Source of the DNA: Rhodopseudomonas palustris
GTDB taxonomy: Bacteria > Pseudomonadota > Alphaproteobacteria > Rhizobiales > Xanthobacteraceae
DNA: 64,000 bases
Reading direction: 5' to 3'
NCBI GenBank assembly: GCA_016215605.1
Contig: JACRJB010000068.1
Span: forward strand, 154,270-218,269
Of the stretch, positions 8,332 to 46,588 are shown one piece after another (within the stretch, counting starts at the first letter, position 1; every line of letters begins with the position of its first letter). The notes beneath the pieces are model-generated. The model saw only the letters and a program-made list of their open reading frames with translations. It had not been told where the DNA came from and searched no databases. The position numbers and the translations under genes were made by a program.

Positions 8332-9255
8332 TCAGCCGTGCGAAAGAATTTGTTCCGTCCAGATGCCGCCGCCGCAACACGCGGCGGTCAGTCCGTCATC
8401 GGGCGCTGTCCCGGAGGCGTCGGCGGCGCATTGCTGGCAATGGTTCGAGACGCGCAGATAACGTTCGGCGTCGGCGCGCGCGACATAGCGCTTCATCAAT
8501 CCGGGCGCCGGCAGATGCGCGAAGCGATGCTGCGGGACCAAAGGGATGATGTGGATGAGATGCGCGCCGGCATAGGCGACCCGTTCGGCAATGTCACCGA
8601 TGTGGTCTTCGTTGACGGTCGGGATCAGCACGGTGTCGACTTTGACGACGATGCCGCGGGCCGACGCCTGCGCGATGCCGTCGATCTGGTTGCGGATCAG
8701 TCGTTTTGCGGCCGCGGTGCCGTCGAGCCGGCGGTGGCGCCAGGCGATCGTCGGCGTGATCCGCGCCTGGATTGCCGGATCGACGGCGTTCACGGTGACC
8801 GTCAGGGTCGTGATGCCGCTCGCGGCGATCTGGTCGACCTGCTCCGGCAGCATCAAGCCGTTGGTCGACAGGCAGAGCGCCAGATCGGGCCAGCGCTCGT
8901 GCACTTTCGCGAGCGTGTCGAGTGCGTGGTGCGTTGCCAGCGGCTCGCCGGGACCGGCGACGCCCACGACCGACAGCGTGGAAGAAAGTGCCCGTGCTCT
9001 GGCAACGAGTTCGATCGCCTGCGTCGGTGTCAGCAGCCGGGATGCTTGATCGGCGTGATGGTCGTGCCGATCGAACGCCTGGGCGCAGAACGCGCAGTCG
9101 ATATTGCAGGCGGGACTGACCGGCAGATGCAGCCGCGTGATCGGGGCGGTGGTCTGTGCAGACGGGAGAACATCGGGACGCTTTCCGTTCGGCGCTGGAA
9201 ACGCCAGCGTTGCCGCCGTCATCGTCTGCGAGAGACCGGCGCCGCCTTCGGTCAT
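8332..9255 (-). CDS. NifB-like radical SAM protein (MarB paralogue)
   Basis: LHLPVSPACNIDCAFC (CX3CX2C), VGVAGPGEPLA, LCLSTNGLMLPE, NHCQQCAADA; close similarity to the protein at 33388-34350. Confidence 0.85.
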   Translation of the reverse strand: MTEGGAGLSQTMTAATLAFPAPNGKRPDVLPSAQTTAPITRLHLPVSPACNIDCAFCAQAFDRHDHHADQASRLLTPTQAIELVARARALSSTLSVVGVAGPGEPLATHHALDTLAKVHERWPDLALCLSTNGLMLPEQVDQIAASGITTLTVTVNAVDPAIQARITPTIAWRHRRLDGTAAAKRLIRNQIDGIAQASARGIVVKVDTVLIPTVNEDHIGDIAERVAYAGAHLIHIIPLVPQHRFAHLPAPGLMKRYVARADAERYLRVSNHCQQCAADASGTAPDDGLTAACCGGGIWTEQILSHG

Positions 9256-19386: not shown

Positions 19387-20892
19387 ATGGTGCTCAATCT
19401 GAAGAATCCGCAGGTCGAAACCCGCGATCAGCGGCTCGGCACCATCACCCAATGGGACGGCCGCGCCGACCAGCTGGTTCGCGATTCCGTCTTCACCTAT
19501 GGCTGTTCGAAAGGCTGCGACAATGGCGGGAGGCGGTTGTGCGAGCAGTCGAGCCCGTTCCAGCAGGCCTCGATGTGCGCCGAGCACATCGCCGTCACCA
19601 ACGCCACGATCATTCAGGAATCGGTGGTGGTGCAGCACTCGCCGATCGGCTGCGCGGCCAGCCAATCGTTCACCGCGCGTTATTATCGCGATCTGGCGGC
19701 GCGGCGCGGCTGGAAGCTGGAAGATCCGAAATCGATCTGCACCAATCTCGGCGAACAGGACATGGTGTTCGGCGGCGTGGAGCGCCTCGAACAAACCATC
19801 CGCGACGCGTTCGAGCGGCACGATCCGCGCGTGATCTTCGTCGCCACGTCCTGCGCCACCGGCATCATCGGCGACGATGTCGACGGCGCGGCGAAGCGGG
19901 TCGAGGATGAGATCGGCATTCCGGTGGTGACGCTGCATTGCGAGGGCTTCAAGTCGAAGCACTGGTCGAGCGGCTGGGACGTGATCGAGCACGGCATCCT
20001 GCGGCGGCTGGTGCCGCACGCGCCGCAGCGGCAGCCGGATCTGATCAACGTCATCCATCTCGGCGGACCCGACGTGTTCTCGCCATTGCTCAACCCGCTC
20101 GGGCTGCGCGTCAATCTGGTGATGGGCGGCAACACGCTGGAGCGGCTGGCGCAGATGTCGGAGGCGGCCGCGACCGTCACGATGTGCTTCGTGCTGTCCT
20201 ATCTCGCCACCGGACTCGAGCAGGAATTCGGCGTGCCGGAGGTGAAGGCGCCGCTGCCCTACGGGCTCGACGCCACCGACAATTGGCTGCGCGACATCGC
20301 GCGGCTGACCGGCACCGAGGACAAGGTCGAGGCAGGGATCGCCAGCGAGCGTGCGCGGATCGCGCCGGAGCTGGCGCGGCTGCGCAAGGCGCTCAAAGGC
20401 AAGCGCGGCTTCGTCGCCGCCGGCGCCGCGTTTGCGCACGGGCTGCTGGCCGATCTGCGCGAACTCGGCGTCGATGTCGACAGCGCGTTCTCGTTCCATC
20501 ACGATCCGACCACCGACAGCGGCGATTCGCAGCAGGATTCGCTCGGTCACCTCGTCGACGTCTGGGGCGACGTGCCGAACTACACGGTCAGTCCCGATCA
20601 GCATTTCCAGGCTCACGCCGCCCTGCAACGTGCGCGCCCCGACTTCGTGATCTGCCGTCATTCCGGCACCATGGCCGTGCTGGCCGGACGAATGGGAATT
20701 CCGGTGCTGCCGATCTTCTATTCCAACGACGGCCTCGGCTACGAGGGGCTGCTGACGATCGGCCGCGCTATCCTCCGGGTGTTGCCGCGCAAGCGGTTCT
20801 ACGACGATGTCGCCGCGCACAGCTCGTTCCCGTATCAACCCTGGTGGCTGGCGGAGACCGATCCCTACGCCGCCATCGCCGAACCCGCCTGA
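19387..20892 (+). CDS. Nitrogenase-like component 1 alpha (NifD-like; MarD paralogue)
   Basis: VVQHSPIGCAASQ, TSCATGIIGDD, HCEGFKSKHW, MCFVLSYLATGLEQEFGV; 501 aa, closely similar to the 35327-36838 product. Confidence 0.85.
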   Translation: MVLNLKNPQVETRDQRLGTITQWDGRADQLVRDSVFTYGCSKGCDNGGRRLCEQSSPFQQASMCAEHIAVTNATIIQESVVVQHSPIGCAASQSFTARYYRDLAARRGWKLEDPKSICTNLGEQDMVFGGVERLEQTIRDAFERHDPRVIFVATSCATGIIGDDVDGAAKRVEDEIGIPVVTLHCEGFKSKHWSSGWDVIEHGILRRLVPHAPQRQPDLINVIHLGGPDVFSPLLNPLGLRVNLVMGGNTLERLAQMSEAAATVTMCFVLSYLATGLEQEFGVPEVKAPLPYGLDATDNWLRDIARLTGTEDKVEAGIASERARIAPELARLRKALKGKRGFVAAGAAFAHGLLADLRELGVDVDSAFSFHHDPTTDSGDSQQDSLGHLVDVWGDVPNYTVSPDQHFQAHAALQRARPDFVICRHSGTMAVLAGRMGIPVLPIFYSNDGLGYEGLLTIGRAILRVLPRKRFYDDVAAHSSFPYQPWWLAETDPYAAIAEPA

Positions 20893-20904
20893 GAAAGACC
20901 AGTG

Positions 20905-22284
20905 ATGCTGTCTCCTGTCACCGACAATCTCGACGCCTCCGGCGCGTTCTGCAGTTCGCCTGGCGCGATCGAGCAGGTTCGTTACGGCTGTAGTCTCGGT
21001 GCGCTGGCGAGCGTGATCGCGATTCCCGGCGCGGTGCCGATTACGCATTGCGGACCGGGCTGCGCCACCAAGCAGTTCCATGCGCTGTCCGGAATCAACG
21101 CCTATCAGGGCGGCGAATTCCACGTGCCGAGCAGCAATCTCGGCAACCAGGAAGTGATCTTCGGCGGCGCCGATCGCCTCGACGAATTGATCCGGTCGAC
21201 GTTGAAGGTGATGCAGGCCGATCTATTCGTGGTGCAGTCCGGCTGCATTCCCGGCCTGGTCGGCGACGATGTCGGCAGCGTGGTGCGGAGCTATCAGAAG
21301 CAGGGCGTGCCGATCGTGTTCGCCGAGACCAGTGGTTATCGCGGCAACAATTTCACCGGCCACGAAACCGTCATTCGCGCCATCATCGACCAGTTCGTCG
21401 ATGTCAACGACGCCCCGCTGCAGCACGGCCTGGTCAATGTCTGGTCGCTGCTGCCGTATCAGAATCCGTTCTGGCGCGGCGATCTCACCGAGATCAAGCG
21501 GATCCTCGAAGGCGTCGGGCTCGAGGTCAACATCCTGTTCGGCCCGTCGTCGGCCGGCGTCGAGGAGTGGCGCGCGATTCAGCGTGCGCAGTTCAATCTG
21601 GTGCTGTCGCCGTGGCTCGGCCTCGCCACCGCCGCTCATCTCGAAGACCTCTACGGCCAGCCGTTCCTGCACGTGCCGACGATCCCGATCGGCGCCAAGG
21701 CCACCAGCGCCTTCCTGCGCCAGGTGGTCGATTTCGCAGGCCTCGATCGCGCGCGCGCAGAAGCGTTCATCGCGCAGGAGGAGAAGGAGCACTACGTCTA
21801 TCTTCGCGACTTCGCCTCGTTCTACGCCGGCTGCACCAGCCAGTATCGGCTGCCGTCGACGGCGATCGTGGTCAGCGAAAGCGCGTATAATCTCGCGGTG
21901 GCGAGCTTCCTGGTCGAGCAGCTCGGTCTCAATCCCGGGCCGATGGTGATCAGCGAGAATCCGCCGGCGGATTTTCGCGAGACCATCCAGAAGTCCTATC
22001 GCGCGCTCGCCGACGGCGCAGGAGCCGAGGCCGTGTTCGAGCAGGACGGTCACCGGATTCACGAATTGATCCGGCAAACCGATCTCACCGGCGAAGTGCC
22101 GATCGTGTTCGGCTCGACCTGGGAGGCGGCGCTGGCGGACGAGATCGGCGCGCCGCTGGTCGAGATCGGCTATCCGTGCACCGACGAGGTCGTGCTGTCG
22201 CGCGCCTATGTCGGCTATCGCGGCGCGCTGGCGTTGATCGAACGCACCTATACGACGGTGGTTCGCGCCAGCACGATGGGGTAG
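20905..22284 (+). CDS. Nitrogenase-like component 1 beta (NifK-like; MarK paralogue)
   Basis: VPITHCGPGCATKQ, SGCIPGLVGDDVGSVV, ETSGYRGNNFTGHE, GLVNVWSLLPYQNPFWRGDL. Confidence 0.85.
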   Translation: MLSPVTDNLDASGAFCSSPGAIEQVRYGCSLGALASVIAIPGAVPITHCGPGCATKQFHALSGINAYQGGEFHVPSSNLGNQEVIFGGADRLDELIRSTLKVMQADLFVVQSGCIPGLVGDDVGSVVRSYQKQGVPIVFAETSGYRGNNFTGHETVIRAIIDQFVDVNDAPLQHGLVNVWSLLPYQNPFWRGDLTEIKRILEGVGLEVNILFGPSSAGVEEWRAIQRAQFNLVLSPWLGLATAAHLEDLYGQPFLHVPTIPIGAKATSAFLRQVVDFAGLDRARAEAFIAQEEKEHYVYLRDFASFYAGCTSQYRLPSTAIVVSESAYNLAVASFLVEQLGLNPGPMVISENPPADFRETIQKSYRALADGAGAEAVFEQDGHRIHELIRQTDLTGEVPIVFGSTWEAALADEIGAPLVEIGYPCTDEVVLSRAYVGYRGALALIERTYTTVVRASTMG

Positions 22285-38459: not shown

Positions 38460-39413
38460 TCAGGACGCCGGCGACCACTTCCAGACGATGTCGCGCACGT
38501 TGATCGGCTTCGGGATCAGGCCGAGCTTGTGGAACCGGTCGGCGGTCTTCTGCTGTGCGGCGAGATATTTGTCGGTTACGGGAGTCACCTCGAAGACCGA
38601 GCGCTCGACCAGCGTCTTGACGACGGCCGGGTCGACGCCGGTCGACGCCGCGAGCGACTTGGTGATCTCGTCATGATGGCTGTTGGCCCATTGCGCTTCC
38701 TTGGCGAAGCTCTGGTTCAGCAGCGCGACGACATCGCCATGGGCATTGGTGAATTCGCGATTGGCGAGGAAGAAGCCGATCGTTTCGTGGGCGTCCCCGG
38801 CGAAATTCACGACCCGTGCGCCGCTCTTTTCGGCGAGGGCCAGATAGGGATCCCAGATCGCCCAGGCGTCGACGGTGCCGCCGGCGAAGGCCGCGGTGCC
38901 GTCGGCCGGCGCGAGGTAGACCGGCGTGACGTCGGAGAACTGCAGGCCGGCCTTTTCGAGGATCGCCACGGCGGTGTTGTGCGCGCTCGACCCCTTCGGG
39001 ATCGCGATGCGCTTGCCCTTGAGATCGGCGGCGGTCTTGATCGGCGAATTCGCCGGAACGACGATGCCTTCGTTCTTGCCGGAGCCGGGCAGTGCCGCAA
39101 CGTAGAGCAGGTTGGCGGTGGCGGCCTGCGCGAAAATCGGCGGGGTGTCGCCGGTGTAGCCGAAATCGATATTGCCGGTGTTGAGCGCCTCGAGCAGCGG
39201 CGGCCCGAACGCGAACTCGACCCACTTCACCGAGAGACCTTTCTCCTTCAACGCCGCTTCGAGAACACCGCGCTCTTTCACGGCGGGCTGGATGCCGGCC
39301 TTCTGGAAGCCGATCCTGACGTCTTTGAGCTCGGCGGCGAACGAAGGTGCGACGGAGGTCGCAGCAAAGGCAGCAAAGGCGAGGGCGAGTAGCGATCTGC
39401 GCGATGTGATCAT
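38460..39413 (-). CDS. ssuA: Aliphatic sulfonate ABC transporter substrate-binding protein
   Basis: SsuA fold: VRIGFQKAGIQPAVKERGVLEAALKEKGLSVKWVEFAFGPPLLEALNTGNIDFGYTGDTPPIFAQA. Confidence 0.9.
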   Translation of the reverse strand: MITSRRSLLALAFAAFAATSVAPSFAAELKDVRIGFQKAGIQPAVKERGVLEAALKEKGLSVKWVEFAFGPPLLEALNTGNIDFGYTGDTPPIFAQAATANLLYVAALPGSGKNEGIVVPANSPIKTAADLKGKRIAIPKGSSAHNTAVAILEKAGLQFSDVTPVYLAPADGTAAFAGGTVDAWAIWDPYLALAEKSGARVVNFAGDAHETIGFFLANREFTNAHGDVVALLNQSFAKEAQWANSHHDEITKSLAASTGVDPAVVKTLVERSVFEVTPVTDKYLAAQQKTADRFHKLGLIPKPINVRDIVWKWSPAS

Positions 39414-40189: not shown

Positions 40190-41041
40190 TCAAAGCTCGA
40201 AGGCTCCCTCGGAGCCCTTCAACAAATCGCGCAGGATCTCGCCTTCGAGCGCCGCGAGCTCGGCCGAGCCGCGCTGGCGCGGGCGGGGAAGGTCGACGAT
40301 GATGTCGTTGGAGATCCGGCCGTCCTCGATCACCAGCACCCGGTCGGCGAGTGCGACCGCTTCGGCGACGTCGTGCGTCACCAGGATGGCGGTGAATCCC
40401 TGATCCTGCCAGACCTGTTCGAGCAGCCGCTGCATGGCGATGCGCGTGAGCGCATCGAGCGCGCCGAGCGGTTCGTCGAATGCCAGCACGCGCGGCTGGC
40501 TGACCAGCGCACGGGCCAGCGCCACGCGCTGCTTCTGCCCGCCGGACAGCACGGCGGGCCATTGATCGCGCTTGTCGTCGAGGCCGACTTCGATCAGCGC
40601 AGCGTCCGCGCGCCCGCGGGCGTCGGGCGAGTCGCGGTCGGCACCGAGTCCGACCTCGACATTGGACAGCACCCGCGCCCACGGCAGCAGTCGCGGCTCC
40701 TGGAACATGACGCGGACATCGCCCGGCTGACGCTCCTCACCGAAAGCAATGTTGCCGCCGGTCGGCGCGTCGAGTCCCGCGATCAGGCGCAGCAGCGTGC
40801 TCTTGCCGCAGCCGCTGCGCCCGACGATGGTGACGAACTGGCCCGCTGGGATGTGCAGATCGATGCCGCGCAGCACGTCGTTGTCACCGAACGACTTGCG
40901 CAAGGCTCGGATCGTCAGCGACAGGCCGCGGGTGTCGGCGTTGCCGTGCTGCCGTCCGTCCTTCGCGGTGACGTGATCGGCGTGATCGGCCTCGGCCGTC
41001 CGGCTGTCGGCGAGGATGAATTGAAGCGCTTCCATCATCAT
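40190..41041 (-). CDS. ssuB: Aliphatic sulfonate ABC transporter ATPase
   Basis: [57 protein letters not shown]. Confidence 0.9.
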
Positions 41042-41046
41042 CAATC

Positions 41047-41853
41047 TCAGTTCTTCTGGAACGCCGGATGCCAGGACAGGGTCAGGCGTTCGAGCAGGCG
41101 CGAAGCGCTGTCGGCGGCCTTGCCCAGCAGGGCGTAGATCAGGATGCTGAGCACGACGACGTCGATCAGCATAAATTCGCGCGCCTGCATCGCCATGTAG
41201 CCGAGGCCCGACGAGGCTGCGATGGTCTCGGCGACGATCAGTGTCAGCCACATGATGCCGAGCGCGAAGCGGACGCCGACGAACACCGAGGGCAGGGCGC
41301 CGGGGAAGATCACGCGGCGGAACAGCTCGACATTGTTCATGCCGTAGATGCGTCCCATCTCGATCAGTTGCGGATCGACGGTGCGAATGCCGTGCAGCGT
41401 GTTGAGGTAGATCGGGAAGAACACGCCGAGCGCGACCAGAAACAGCTTGGCCTGCTCGTCGATGCCGAACCAAAGGATCACCAGCGGGATCAGCGCCAGA
41501 TGCGGCACGTTGCGCACCATCTGCAGCGTGGTGTCCGACAGCTTCGAGCTGAGGCTGGACAGGCCGTTGGCGAGACCGAAGGCGAAGCCGATCAGGCCGC
41601 CGATCGCGAAGCCGACCGAGGCGCGCCAGAAGCTGACCCAGATGTTCTTCGCCAGATCGCCGGACTGCAGCAGCTTCCAGCCGGCGACGACGACGTCGGT
41701 CGGCGCGGGCAGCACCCGCGCCGAGACCAAGCCGAACATGCAGGCGGCCTGCCAGACCAGGATGATCAGCAGCGGCACGATCCACTGGATCAGGCCGTCG
41801 GCGCGGGGCAGACGCCAGGCGCGGGGACGGGCGAGCGCTTCGACGAGGCTCAT
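41047..41853 (-). CDS. ssuC: Aliphatic sulfonate ABC transporter permease
   Basis: SsuC-type permease between ssuB and ssuD. Confidence 0.9.
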
Positions 41854-43025
41854 GGCTTGGTCGCCTGCTTGGCTTGGGGCACCAGTTCATTGGCGATGGT
41901 CTCGCCGAACGGGCCGGTGTTGGCGCGAAGCTTGGTGACGTTGCCTTCGTGCTGCGGCTTGACCAGCGGGAACACCAGCTCGGCGAAGCGATAGGCTTCC
42001 TCCAGATGCGGATAGCCGGACAGGATGAACGTATCGATGCCGACGTCCTGATATTCCCTGATCCGCGCTGCGACGGTCTGCGGGTCGCCGACCAGCGCGG
42101 TGCCCGCGCCGCCGCGGACGAGGCCGACGCCGGCCCACAGATTGGGGCTGATCTCCAGCTTGTCGCGCCGGCCGCCGTGCAATTGCGACATTCGTTGCTG
42201 TCCGACCGAATCCATCCGCGAGAACACCTTTTGCGCGGCGGCGATGGTGTCGTCGGTGACGTAGCGGATCAGATCGTCCGCCGCGGCCCAGGCGGCCTCG
42301 TTGGTTTCGCGCACGATCACATGAAGCCGGATGCCGAACGACAATTTGCGACCGCGCGGCTCCGCCACAGCGCGGACGCGCGCGACCTTGTCGGCCACCA
42401 GCGCCGGTGGCTCACCCCAGGTGAGATACTTATCGACGGTGTCCGCTGCGACGTCGATGCCGGCGTCCGACGAGCCGCCGAAATACAGCGGCGGCCGCGG
42501 CGTCTGCACCGGCGGAAACAGCAGCCGGCCGTCTTCGATCGTGATGTGCTTGCCGGCGACGTTGACGGTCTTGCCGGACAACAGATCGGAATAGACGTTG
42601 AGGAACTCGCGGGTCACCTCGTAGCGTTCGTCGTGCGACAGGAACACGCCGTCGCCCTTGTTCTCGACCGGATCGCCGCCGGTGACGACGTTGATCAACA
42701 GCCGGCCATTAGTGACGCGGTCCAGCGTCGCGGTCATCCGCGCGGCGACGGTCGGCGATTGCAAACCTGGGCGGACGGCGACCAGATAGCGCAGCCGCTC
42801 CGTCCACGGCGCCACTGCCGAAGCGACGACCCAGGAGTCCTCGCAGCTCCGCCCCGTGGGCAGCAGCACGCCGAAATAGCCGAGCTGATCGGCGGCCTGC
42901 GCGATCTGGCGCAGATAGCTGAAATTCACGTCGCGGCCGCCGGCGCTCGTGCCGAGATAATGCCCGTCGCCGTGAGTGGGCAGGAACCATAGGAAATTGG
43001 CGCCCGGCGTGTGGATCGAACTCAT
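41850..43025 (-). CDS. ssuD: FMNH2-dependent alkanesulfonate monooxygenase
   Basis: [53 protein letters not shown]. Confidence 0.95.
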
Positions 43026-43059
43026 CCGCATTCTCCCTTGTTCTGATTGTTGTGGGCGT

Positions 43060-44007
43060 TCAGGCCTGCGTCGGAGTCCAGACTGCGTCACGCACCACGA
43101 TCGGCCGCGGGATCAGTCCGAGCTGATGGAATCGGTCGGCGACGCCCTGCTGTGTGACGACGATGTCGTCGGTGATCAGTCCGACCGCGAACGACGATCG
43201 GTTCGCGGCCACGGTCTGAATATCGAGCGGAATGCCGGTGACGGCGCTGAGCGATTGCGCGACATCGCTGCGGTTGTTCTCCGCCCATCGCGCGGTGGCA
43301 CTGGTGACGTCGATGATCTGCTTCAGGATCTGCCGGTTGCGCTGCGCGAACTCACGATTGGCGATGTAGAACGAATGAGTGCGGCCGACGTCGGAGGCGT
43401 TGACCAGAATCCGGCCGTTCTGTTTGAGTTCGCCGATGGCAAAATACGGATCCCAGATCGACCATGCGTCGATGCTGCCCTGGGCGAAGGCGGGGCCAGC
43501 GTCGGGCGGCGTCAGATAGACCGGGGTGATGTCGGCATAGCTCAGGCCGGCCTTGGCCAGCACCAGCAGCACGACGTTGTGCGCGCTCGAGCCCTTGGTG
43601 AAACCGATCCGCTTGCCCTTGAGGTCAGCCAGCGTCCGGATCGGCGAATCTTGCGGGACCAGAATCCCCTGGCCGTTGGTGATCGGCTGGCCGGCGGCGT
43701 AGACGATCGCGGCGCCTGCGGCCTGCGCGAAGATCGGCGGCGAGTCGCCGACCGCGCCGTAGTGAATGCTGCCGACGTTCATCGCCTCCAGCATCGGCGG
43801 ACCGGAGGAAAACTCGATCCATTTCACCCCGATGTTCTGCGGGGCGAAGTGTTCCTCCAGCGCGCGACGCTGGCGCGCGATCACCAGCACGCCGTTCTTC
43901 TGATAGCCGATGCGGATCTCCGTCGGCGGTTCGGCCGCCGCGCGTCGCGACAGCGCCGGAAGCAGCGCGGCGCCGGCTGATAGTTTGAGAAAGCTGCGTC
44001 GCCTCAT
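43060..44007 (-). CDS. Second SsuA-like sulfonate-binding protein of the ssu cluster
   Basis: [68 protein letters not shown]. Confidence 0.9.
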
Positions 44008-44240
44008 CCGGCCTCACTCCGTGTTCGCGATGAATTGGGTCGCGAGGAATGATGGGCAGGTGGCCGCTGACTGTCGAGACGCTTGAGAAAATAGCAATGC
44101 CCGTGCTGCGGTCGGCGGCGACGCAGAGGTAAATTCCATCGCGGTGGGCGGCGATGGCATGGACGTTCTAGCGGTCGCGGAACCCGTGTCGGGCTTCGGC
44201 AATCTCGACGTGTTGCGAGATCACGACTTGCGTTCAACCC

Positions 44241-44260
44241 CCGCGTCGCCGAACGCGGGT
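44241..44260. other. Small hairpin in the divergent region between ssuA2 and the radical SAM gene
   Basis: CCCGCGT-CGCCGA-ACGCGGG perfect 7-bp stem. Confidence 0.35.
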
Positions 44261-44455
44261 ACGCGAGCCGCCCCCGCAGCCTGATTATCGTGCAGCAGTC
44301 AATTACCGTGACAGCCGGAGTGTTCTGCGGGATTGACGCACGTCGCTGCGAACCGTCTCCAAACTCATCGATCTTCGGAATTGTCGATGGGAACCCGTTC
44401 GGTGATGATTTGCCGGCCGCGCGAATGGCGCGGTGCAGCGGCGGATCAGTCACCG

Positions 44456-45673
44456 ATGGCAACGGTAAGCGAATTGAAGGACGGGCTCTGGCGCGAGTTG
44501 GCGCTCAAGGCGGAGCTTGGTATCAACGGCATCGCCATCAGCAGCGAGGCGCTCGACTTCGTTCAGCCGGGTGTCAAGGCTCAGGAGCAGGTGCATTGCC
44601 TGTTCGAAATGGATTTCGAGACCCACGACGTCGAGCTGCCGTCGCACTTCTATCTGCCGCTCGGCCTCAGCGTGCCGTTCCGCTGGAATCCGAGGTCGAC
44701 CTACCGGGTCGATCTGATCGGCGACCGCACGGTACTCATCGACCGTAGCGAGGTCATCGCCGAGGTCAAGTTCCGCGAGCGGCCGTCATTCTATCGCGCC
44801 AAGACTTCCGATGGCATCGACATGTCGCAGATCGGTGCTCACTATGCCGACCGGCATCTGTTCGTCGTCTACAGCAACGAGTGCTCCTACAAGGAGAAAG
44901 GCGAAGACTGCCTGTTCTGCAATATCAACTACACCAAGGACGTCTACGGCGAGAAGGGTGGCGTGTTCTGGAAGAATGCGCGGCAGATCGGTGAGACGGC
45001 GGCGCGGGCCTATAACGACGGCGCCATCGACCATCTCACCGTCAGTGGGGGCGTCATCCCCGAGCGGCGCGAGCTCGAATACTATCTCGACGTCGCCGAG
45101 GCGATCCAGCGCCACACCGGCCGGGACGATTTCAACGGCACCGCGACCATCGCCGCACCTCTCGACCTGCGCAACCTCGATCGCTTCAAGGAAGCCGGCT
45201 ATCGCACCACTGCGATGAACATCGAGATCTGGGACAAGGGGATCTACGACGCGATCTGCCCCGGCAAGGCGCGCGGCGGCGGCGGCTGGGAGCACTGGGT
45301 CAAGGCGCTGGAATACGCCGCCAAGGTGTTTGGCCACGGCCGGGTGCGTTCCAACATCGTCGCCGGCATCGAGCCGAAACGCTCGACGCTGGCGGGGCTG
45401 GAATATCTCGCATCCAAGGGCGTGGTCGGCACCTTCGCAGTCTGGTGCCCGAATCCGGGCTCTGAGCTCGAAGGCCATCGCCCACCTGTGCCGGCTTGGT
45501 ATCTCGACCTCGCGCACAAGCTGGTGGCGATCTGGAAGAAGAACGGCATCACCTACGAGCACGTGTTCGACAGCAACGCCTCCTCCGACACGTTGCAGCA
45601 CGACATCTATCGGATCGAGGACGAGACGCTGCCGATCTTCGCCACAGCCAAGCAGATCGAACCGGCCGAATAG
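44456..45673 (+). CDS. Radical SAM protein with non-canonical CX8CX2C motif, associated with NifH-like and nitrogenase-like kinase genes
   Basis: [21 protein letters not shown] motif; [12 protein letters not shown] and [18 protein letters not shown] segments consistent with a radical SAM barrel; about 140-residue N-terminal extension. Confidence 0.75.
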
Positions 45674-45711
45674 GACGCGCGCCGACACGATACAGAGCGA
45701 TTGGAGGATTC

Positions 45712-46587
45712 GTGAGCAGCGGGAAAGCCAAACACATCGCCATCTATGGCAAGGGCGGCATCGGCAAGTCGACTACGACGTCGAACATCAGCGCGGCGCT
45801 CGCGGAAGCCGGCTATCGCGTCGTTCAGATCGGCTGCGATCCGAAGAGCGATTCGACCACCATCCTGCGCGGCGGCGAGGATCTGCCGACGGTGCTCGAC
45901 AGTCTGCGCGACAGCGGTCGGCCGACCATCGCCGACGTCTCGGCGGCCGGCTTCGGCGGCGTGCTGTGCATCGAAGCGGGCGGCCCGGTGCCGGGCGTGG
46001 GCTGTGCCGGCCGCGGCATCAACGCTGCGGTCGACCTGCTGCACGAATTGAAGCTGTTCGAGGAATTCAAACCCGACTACGTGCTGTACGACGTGCTCGG
46101 CGACGTCGTCTGCGGCGGCTTCGCGGTGCCGATCCGCAATGGGATCGCCGAGTCCGCCTTCGTGGTCACGTCGTCGGACTTCATGGCGATCTTCGCCGCC
46201 AACAACCTGTTCAAGGCGATCAGCAAGTACGCGCCCTCCGGCGGTGCGCGGCTCGGCGGCGTCATCGCCAACAGCATCCAGACGTCCTATGCGTCGTCGC
46301 TGATCGACGATTTTGCGGCGCGGACCGGGACCAGCGTTGTCGGTTACGTGCCGCGGTCTCTGACAGTGGCGCAGAGCGAGCTGTACGGCCAGACCGTGAT
46401 CGAGGCCGCGCCGACATCCGAGCAGGCCGACGTCTATCGCCAGCTCGCGCGTCATATTGCCGGGAATCATCCGGTTTCGATCCCGAAGCCGCTGAACGGA
46501 CCGGCGTTGAAGGACTGGGCCAAGCAATGGGGCGACCGGGTGTTCGGTGCGCGTGCGGAGCCGCCGACGCTGGTCGAGGCGGTGTGA
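45712..46587 (+). CDS. NifH-like ATP-dependent reductase (second copy, not adjacent to a D/K pair)
   Basis: GTG start with GGAGG upstream; [53 protein letters not shown]. Confidence 0.85.
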
Positions 46588-46588
46588 C

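Follow-up and report, generated by a model that had tools for sequence, protein, structure and literature searches.

The DNA analyzed here, hereafter the window, is a 64,000-nucleotide stretch from the genome of the purple bacterium Rhodopseudomonas palustris; it carries a gene for a radical SAM protein, isrB, in an uninterrupted reading frame from ATG to TAG (Table 1). In the window, isrB is followed in order by isrH and the beginning of isrD, and isrK is missing. In the protein encoded at 46589-48442, HisKA_3 and HATPase_c domains come after a NifD-type domain. Upstream of isrB, on the opposite strand, are genes for two SsuA proteins, SsuB, SsuC, an SsuD-like protein and a flavin reductase, such that a sulfonate transporter of the SsuCAB type lies close to isrB. 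A promoter scan of 43900-48600 returned two weak matches only, both on the minus strand. A separate marBHDK-like cluster is found further upstream of the sulfonate genes. The window also holds a second MarD/MarK-like pair (19387-22272) that is 53-54% identical to the MarDK of this cluster and lacks an adjacent marH-like match in the window, and a second MarB-like gene (8335-9222, minus strand; 60%).

Table 1 Features of the isr locus and the adjoining sulfonate genes (positions are those of the window).
Feature	Position	Strand	Basis
isrB, radical SAM protein, 405 aa, variant_rSAM family	44456..45673	+	reading frame, profiles, orthologues, tree
CX8CX2C motif of IsrB (Cys143, Cys152, Cys155)	44882..44920	+	sequence, alignment, tree
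isrH, NifH-like reductase; P-loop and motifs of two cluster cysteines present	45712..46587	+	
isrD fragment, residues 1-342 of about 453, truncated by fusion; Cys74 kept (46808-46810)	46589..47613	+	
3' part of REC-HisKA_3-HATPase kinase gene (last ~20 REC residues and kinase), in frame with isrD'	47614..48442	+	
SsuA-type sulfonate-binding protein, divergent from isrB	43060..44007	-	
SsuD-like (luciferase-like) monooxygenase, presumed O2-dependent sulfonate route	41850..43091	-	neighbouring Ssu genes
SsuC-like permease	41047..41853	-	neighbourhood and similarity
SsuB-like ABC ATPase (coding part used in comparisons)	40190..40990	-	
second SsuA-type sulfonate-binding protein	38460..39413	-	

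An earlier note on this DNA, made from the letters alone, had described IsrB as a radical SAM protein with an unusual CX8CX2C motif preceded by about 140 residues. The motif is indeed C143-X8-C152-X2-C155, and we counted 142 residues ahead of the first cysteine. These three cysteines and C268 (in CPGK) are invariant across 30 aligned homologues, and every IsrB-like row tested by alignment and tree keeps CX8CX2C, indicating that the spacing did not arise by chance. The spacing is fixed throughout a known family rather than peculiar to one gene; all IsrB relatives examined share it, and an NCBI family model exists. The contrast that had been drawn with NifB and MarB is real and can be seen inside the window: the MarB/NifB-like protein encoded 11 kb upstream of isrB has CNIDCAFC, the canonical CX3CX2C, and scores 254 bits with the nifB profile. 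This profile has no match in the window IsrB. NifB, MarB and IsrB are alike as radical SAM partners of NifHDK-type enzymes; however, the partner enzymes of NifB and MarB have cofactor ligands of the Cys275/His442 type, which IsrD lacks. On the basis of its motif and the absent nifB match, identity of the window protein with NifB or MarB was ruled out, as the earlier note had proposed for NifB.

The window IsrB matches NCBIfam model NF045502 (variant_rSAM) over residues 13-362 with 438.8 bits, well above the cut-off of 125, and Pfam Radical_SAM over residues 151-304 (39.9 bits, cut-off 29.5). NF045502 is a domain-level model that includes other radical SAM proteins, and the match alone does not name a function. 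The MSMEG_0568 family (TIGR04043) is a sibling that likewise has variant spacing before the last two cysteines; its relatives have CX9CX2C and form a separate clade in the tree, and membership was rejected on the tree and on a score of 90.5 bits against a cut-off of 303.7. AlphaFold gave a confident model of IsrB (pLDDT 89.9, pTM 0.89), and a fold search with it retrieved barrels like those of lipoyl synthase, HydE and PylB, with NifB at rank 38. The search pointed to the general radical SAM barrel and to no substrate, and no meaningful hit came from phmmer against the PDB. For the N-terminal ~115 residues, the prediction of helix and sheet has high confidence, and therefore the "long extension" of the earlier note is, in the model, a folded part of the family.

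A profile built from seven orthologues was used to search a species-genome collection for relatives of the gene. The search returned 23 loci, which came from Rhodopseudomonas, Acetobacteraceae (Rhodopila), Clostridium, Geobacter, Chlorobiaceae and others. Where the operon was covered, the commonest order was radical SAM, NifH, NifD (about 450-500 aa) and NifK (about 420-460 aa), with isrB immediately upstream of isrH-isrD-isrK in L022, L024, L027, L029 and other loci. An Ssu/Tau-type ABC transporter often lies beside these operons (Rhodopseudomonas, Rhodopila, Clostridium and others), and none of them has a kinase fused to the NifD-like gene. In the L022 operon, Cys74 is the sole cysteine of IsrD, with Arg and Pro at the positions of nitrogenase Cys62 and Cys154; the subunit is also without Cys275/His442, leaving it one P-cluster cysteine and none of the FeMo-co ligands. 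IsrK from this operon has cysteines 12, 37 and 96, numbered from the second Met. The isrD fragment of the window encodes Cys74 and stops before the His442 region.

These features match a system described in 2024. The nflBHDK genes of Rhodobacter capsulatus are isrBHDK and encode an isethionate reductase, as shown genetically (PMC11423573). There, the nifHDK-like genes are directly preceded by isrB, which codes for a radical SAM protein, and isrBHDK and ssuCAB are all required for isethionate to serve as sulfur source without oxygen (PMC11423573). Transfer of isrBHDK and ssuCAB conferred the trait on R. sphaeroides, and isethionate lyase can substitute for IsrDK, a complementation that implies sulfite release (PMC11423573). 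The reported IsrD has a single cysteine, Cys74; Arg and Pro/Ser occupy its other two sites, and it is without Cys275/His442 and FeMo-co ligands; the reported IsrK cysteines are Cys12, 37 and 99 (PMC11423573). The relatives of the window genes resemble R. capsulatus IsrBHDK in the radical SAM gene upstream of nifH-, nifD- and nifK-like genes, in the nearby sulfonate ABC transporter, in an IsrD with Cys74 only and no FeMo-co ligands and in an IsrK with three cysteines. By contrast, isrD of the window is cut short and continues into a kinase, and the strain has lost isrK, whereas the operon of near relatives is intact, as it is in R. infernalis. A clear IsrB other than that of the window was found neither in 395 genomes of the class nor in 397 genomes from the family to which a pufX-bearing genome belongs; the family set drew about one genome per genus, reached no Rhodobacter isrB and is not evidence of absence. 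The gene of the window behaves as an orthologue of isrB by all indirect tests and as such would be a new member of the system described in 2024. Gene order, transporter and reported residues together argue, with a probability of about 0.9, that the gene is an isrB whose isr operon has been broken. Dark-operative protochlorophyllide reductase (DPOR, BchLNB) is a further nitrogenase-like enzyme that acts on an organic substrate and has a single [4Fe-4S] cluster with 3+1 ligands (PMC11423573 and general background). In DPOR, however, the three cysteines lie on the D-type subunit rather than the K-type subunit as in Isr, and no radical SAM partner is needed.

The break in the operon lies inside the nifD-like gene, where DNA homology between the window and its three nearest relatives ends (47609-47614). 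In the window strain, isrD is cut after residue 342 and joined in frame to a REC-histidine kinase tail. The ~825 bases that follow correspond to the 3' part of a REC-HisKA_3-HATPase kinase gene that stands alone in three further species of the genus (82-86% DNA and 88-93% protein identity), and only the last ~20 residues of REC are left in the fusion. The rest of REC was absent elsewhere in the assembly. The genome holds no close match to this REC-kinase apart from the piece at 47614-48442, which lost its REC domain with the fusion. The genome (G000) has 19 nitrogenase-component-1 domains that, by our own assignment from position and score, belong to nif, alternative nitrogenases, bch, two mar pairs and the isrD fragment. 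Because all 19 are assigned in this way, no isrK is left, and none was found in the assembly. The isr locus and the kinase gene are distant in relatives (about 740 kb apart in G010), and the right flank of the fusion, with its DUF763 gene, is not syntenic with the kinase gene in relatives. The DUF763 protein that adjoins the fusion (48486-49733, minus strand) has a full-length match in only 3 of 15 other genus members. Pairwise dN/dS was 0.064 for isrB (to the nearest relative), 0.058 for isrH, 0.142 for isrD' and 0.057-0.070 for the kinase part (to the nearest kinases), as low as among relatives. There was no sign of relaxed selection on isrB and isrH, whose values are about 0.06. The low values could mean that the damage is recent or that the remaining genes are still useful without IsrDK; the data fit both.

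The earlier note had taken the partner of IsrB for a nitrogenase-like sensor, a view that did not survive comparison with relatives: there, a complete NifD-like subunit precedes a NifK-like one, and the gene in the window encodes a shortened NifD-like protein with a kinase attached. The "sensor" is best read as a strain-specific deletion product. With isrD cut and isrK lost, isrB of this strain was most likely orphaned recently. The suggestion that IsrB makes a cofactor for the sensor was rejected accordingly, as the sensor is truncated IsrD joined to a kinase. It seems very improbable that the fusion is nonetheless a working new sensor in which the N-terminal part of IsrD, with Cys74, would replace the REC input and IsrH and IsrB would serve the fusion. 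Its 617 codons are free of stops, but an in-frame joint has a one-in-three chance of arising by accident; and dN/dS is low for isrB, isrH and the isrD' and kinase parts alike, yet this is mostly inherited from the time before the joint. The H-box (REMHDNLGQ) and the ATP-binding motifs are retained, set against an incomplete IsrD that has neither K subunit nor C-terminal domain, a broken REC and the restriction of the fusion to a single genome among the genus members examined. A faulty assembly, with intact isrBHDK and intact REC-kinase in the strain itself, is possible but less likely than a deletion, and we consider it quite unlikely. The assembly is a draft of 78 contigs, and isr and the kinase gene are far apart in relatives, both of which would fit a misjoin; however, the joint lies inside a 218-kb contig, and isrK, the C-terminal part of isrD and REC are all missing from an assembly rated 100% complete. 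The apparent sensor, nitrogenase-like and equipped with a dedicated cofactor maker, is thereby reduced to a deletion within a known operon.

The genetic tie between IsrB and its NifH-like and NifD-like partners, which the earlier note had drawn from synteny, was borne out by the co-occurrence analysis that it had proposed. IsrB is present in 7 of 217 Clostridiaceae and IsrD in the same 7, in one copy each, a perfect overlap with a chance probability of about 2.5e-13 by our own arithmetic, uncorrected for kinship. The note had also named an outcome that would count against it, placement in a characterized housekeeping family found without the NifH and kinase partners. Part of this was observed, as isrB is characterized and the kinase is absent everywhere else, but isrB was not found without a nitrogenase-like partner and is not a housekeeping gene. 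Of the genomes in a set of 19, 17 each had a single strong IsrD (over 490 bits), against 1 to 4 copies of IsrB (over 250 bits), and up to 6 IsrB loci, some of them broken in G1109, were found in one Clostridiaceae genome. G554 and G555 have divergent IsrB-like proteins; as a strong IsrD is absent there, these may belong to a different system. A metK gene lies inside 6 of the 7 Clostridiaceae isr loci (L030, L180, L182-L185; that of L030 scores 590.7 bits with TIGR01034) and is missing from the isr locus of C. tyrobutyricum, and several Clostridiaceae isr loci have a PNP-family nucleosidase/phosphorylase gene. The ratio of one IsrD to multiple IsrB loci, the perfect co-occurrence in 217 Clostridiaceae and the isr-linked metK are new here; we did not find the 2-6 isrB loci per isrHDK and the metK of several lineages discussed in PMC11423573.

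Arylsulfotransferase-like, SDR, PNPOx-like and PNP-family genes recur in the Clostridiaceae isr loci. In Geobacter UBA698 (L032:8939-13930), four tandem isrB genes directly follow a sulfonate-type ABC transporter, and the single isrD is on another contig. L036 (7049-19866), L038, L041 and L043 have three isrB-like genes next to a transporter of the Tau type and a pair of ABC genes whose ATPase domains are SsuB-like; to these, L036 and L038 add a divergent radical SAM gene and a 157-159-aa orphan.

How IsrB contributes is left undecided by the authors of the R. capsulatus study, who consider both bond cleavage by IsrB and activation of IsrHDK, with IslB and PflA as precedents (PMC11423573). In the intact operon, SsuABC would import the sulfonate, and IsrH, driven by ATP and carrying a [4Fe-4S] cluster, would pass electrons to IsrDK, which probably holds one [4Fe-4S] ligated by Cys74 of IsrD and three cysteines of IsrK. 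IsrDK and IsrB together would then cut the C-S bond and free sulfite. Given its identity as IsrB, we consider it most likely, at about even odds, that the protein acts on the sulfonate itself, spending SAM at each turnover and setting the choice of substrate, with IsrHDK as a shared partner that delivers electrons or reduces. This role is suggested by an IsrDK without a NifB-type cofactor site, by the several IsrB per IsrHDK and by metK in the loci. On the other side, the extra IsrB copies could serve other pathways, and metK, which is not universal in the loci, could reflect that sulfur-starved cells need SAM for general purposes. The extension to a modular desulfonation, in which each IsrB paralogue would activate a different sulfonate with stoichiometric SAM and one IsrHDK would be the common ATP-driven electron source, is more tentative.

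IsrB could instead be an activase or maturase that acts once on IsrDK or IsrH, for example by introducing a radical modification or assembling a metal site, in the manner of IslB on IslA. Activation has been left possible by the authors of the R. capsulatus study, with its precedents (PMC11423573), NifB and MarB are maturases in other nitrogenase-like systems, and the perfect IsrB/IsrD co-occurrence fits an activase as well. However, the single Cys74 of IsrD and its lack of FeMo-co ligands leave no NifB-type cofactor to be made, 2-6 IsrB loci per single IsrD would be unexpected for a maturase, and metK in isr loci suggests bulk use of SAM; we therefore regard an activase as somewhat unlikely. 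By the same token, the proposal of the earlier note that IsrB makes or modifies a cofactor is unlikely for a NifD-like subunit without FeMo-co ligands in which all but one P-cluster cysteine is gone. It is also unlikely that the Rhodopseudomonas system attacks a sulfonate other than isethionate, such as taurine, sulfoacetate or methanesulfonate. R. capsulatus alone was tested, the transporter of the window is transcribed away from isrB and resembles SsuA, not TauA, and IsrB copy number varies; but isethionate is the sole substrate shown so far, and the 67-95% mutual identity among alphaproteobacterial IsrB suggests one function in the clade.

The copy-number pattern and the embedded metK sharpen the question of what IsrB does and favor action on the substrate. 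If the modular reading is true, sulfur would be drawn from several sulfonates, without oxygen, in genomes that have 3-6 isrB loci together with several binding proteins and a metK of their own. Should the role of IsrB on the substrate prove right, strict anaerobes such as Clostridium would be able to obtain sulfur from several sulfonates by a modular route.
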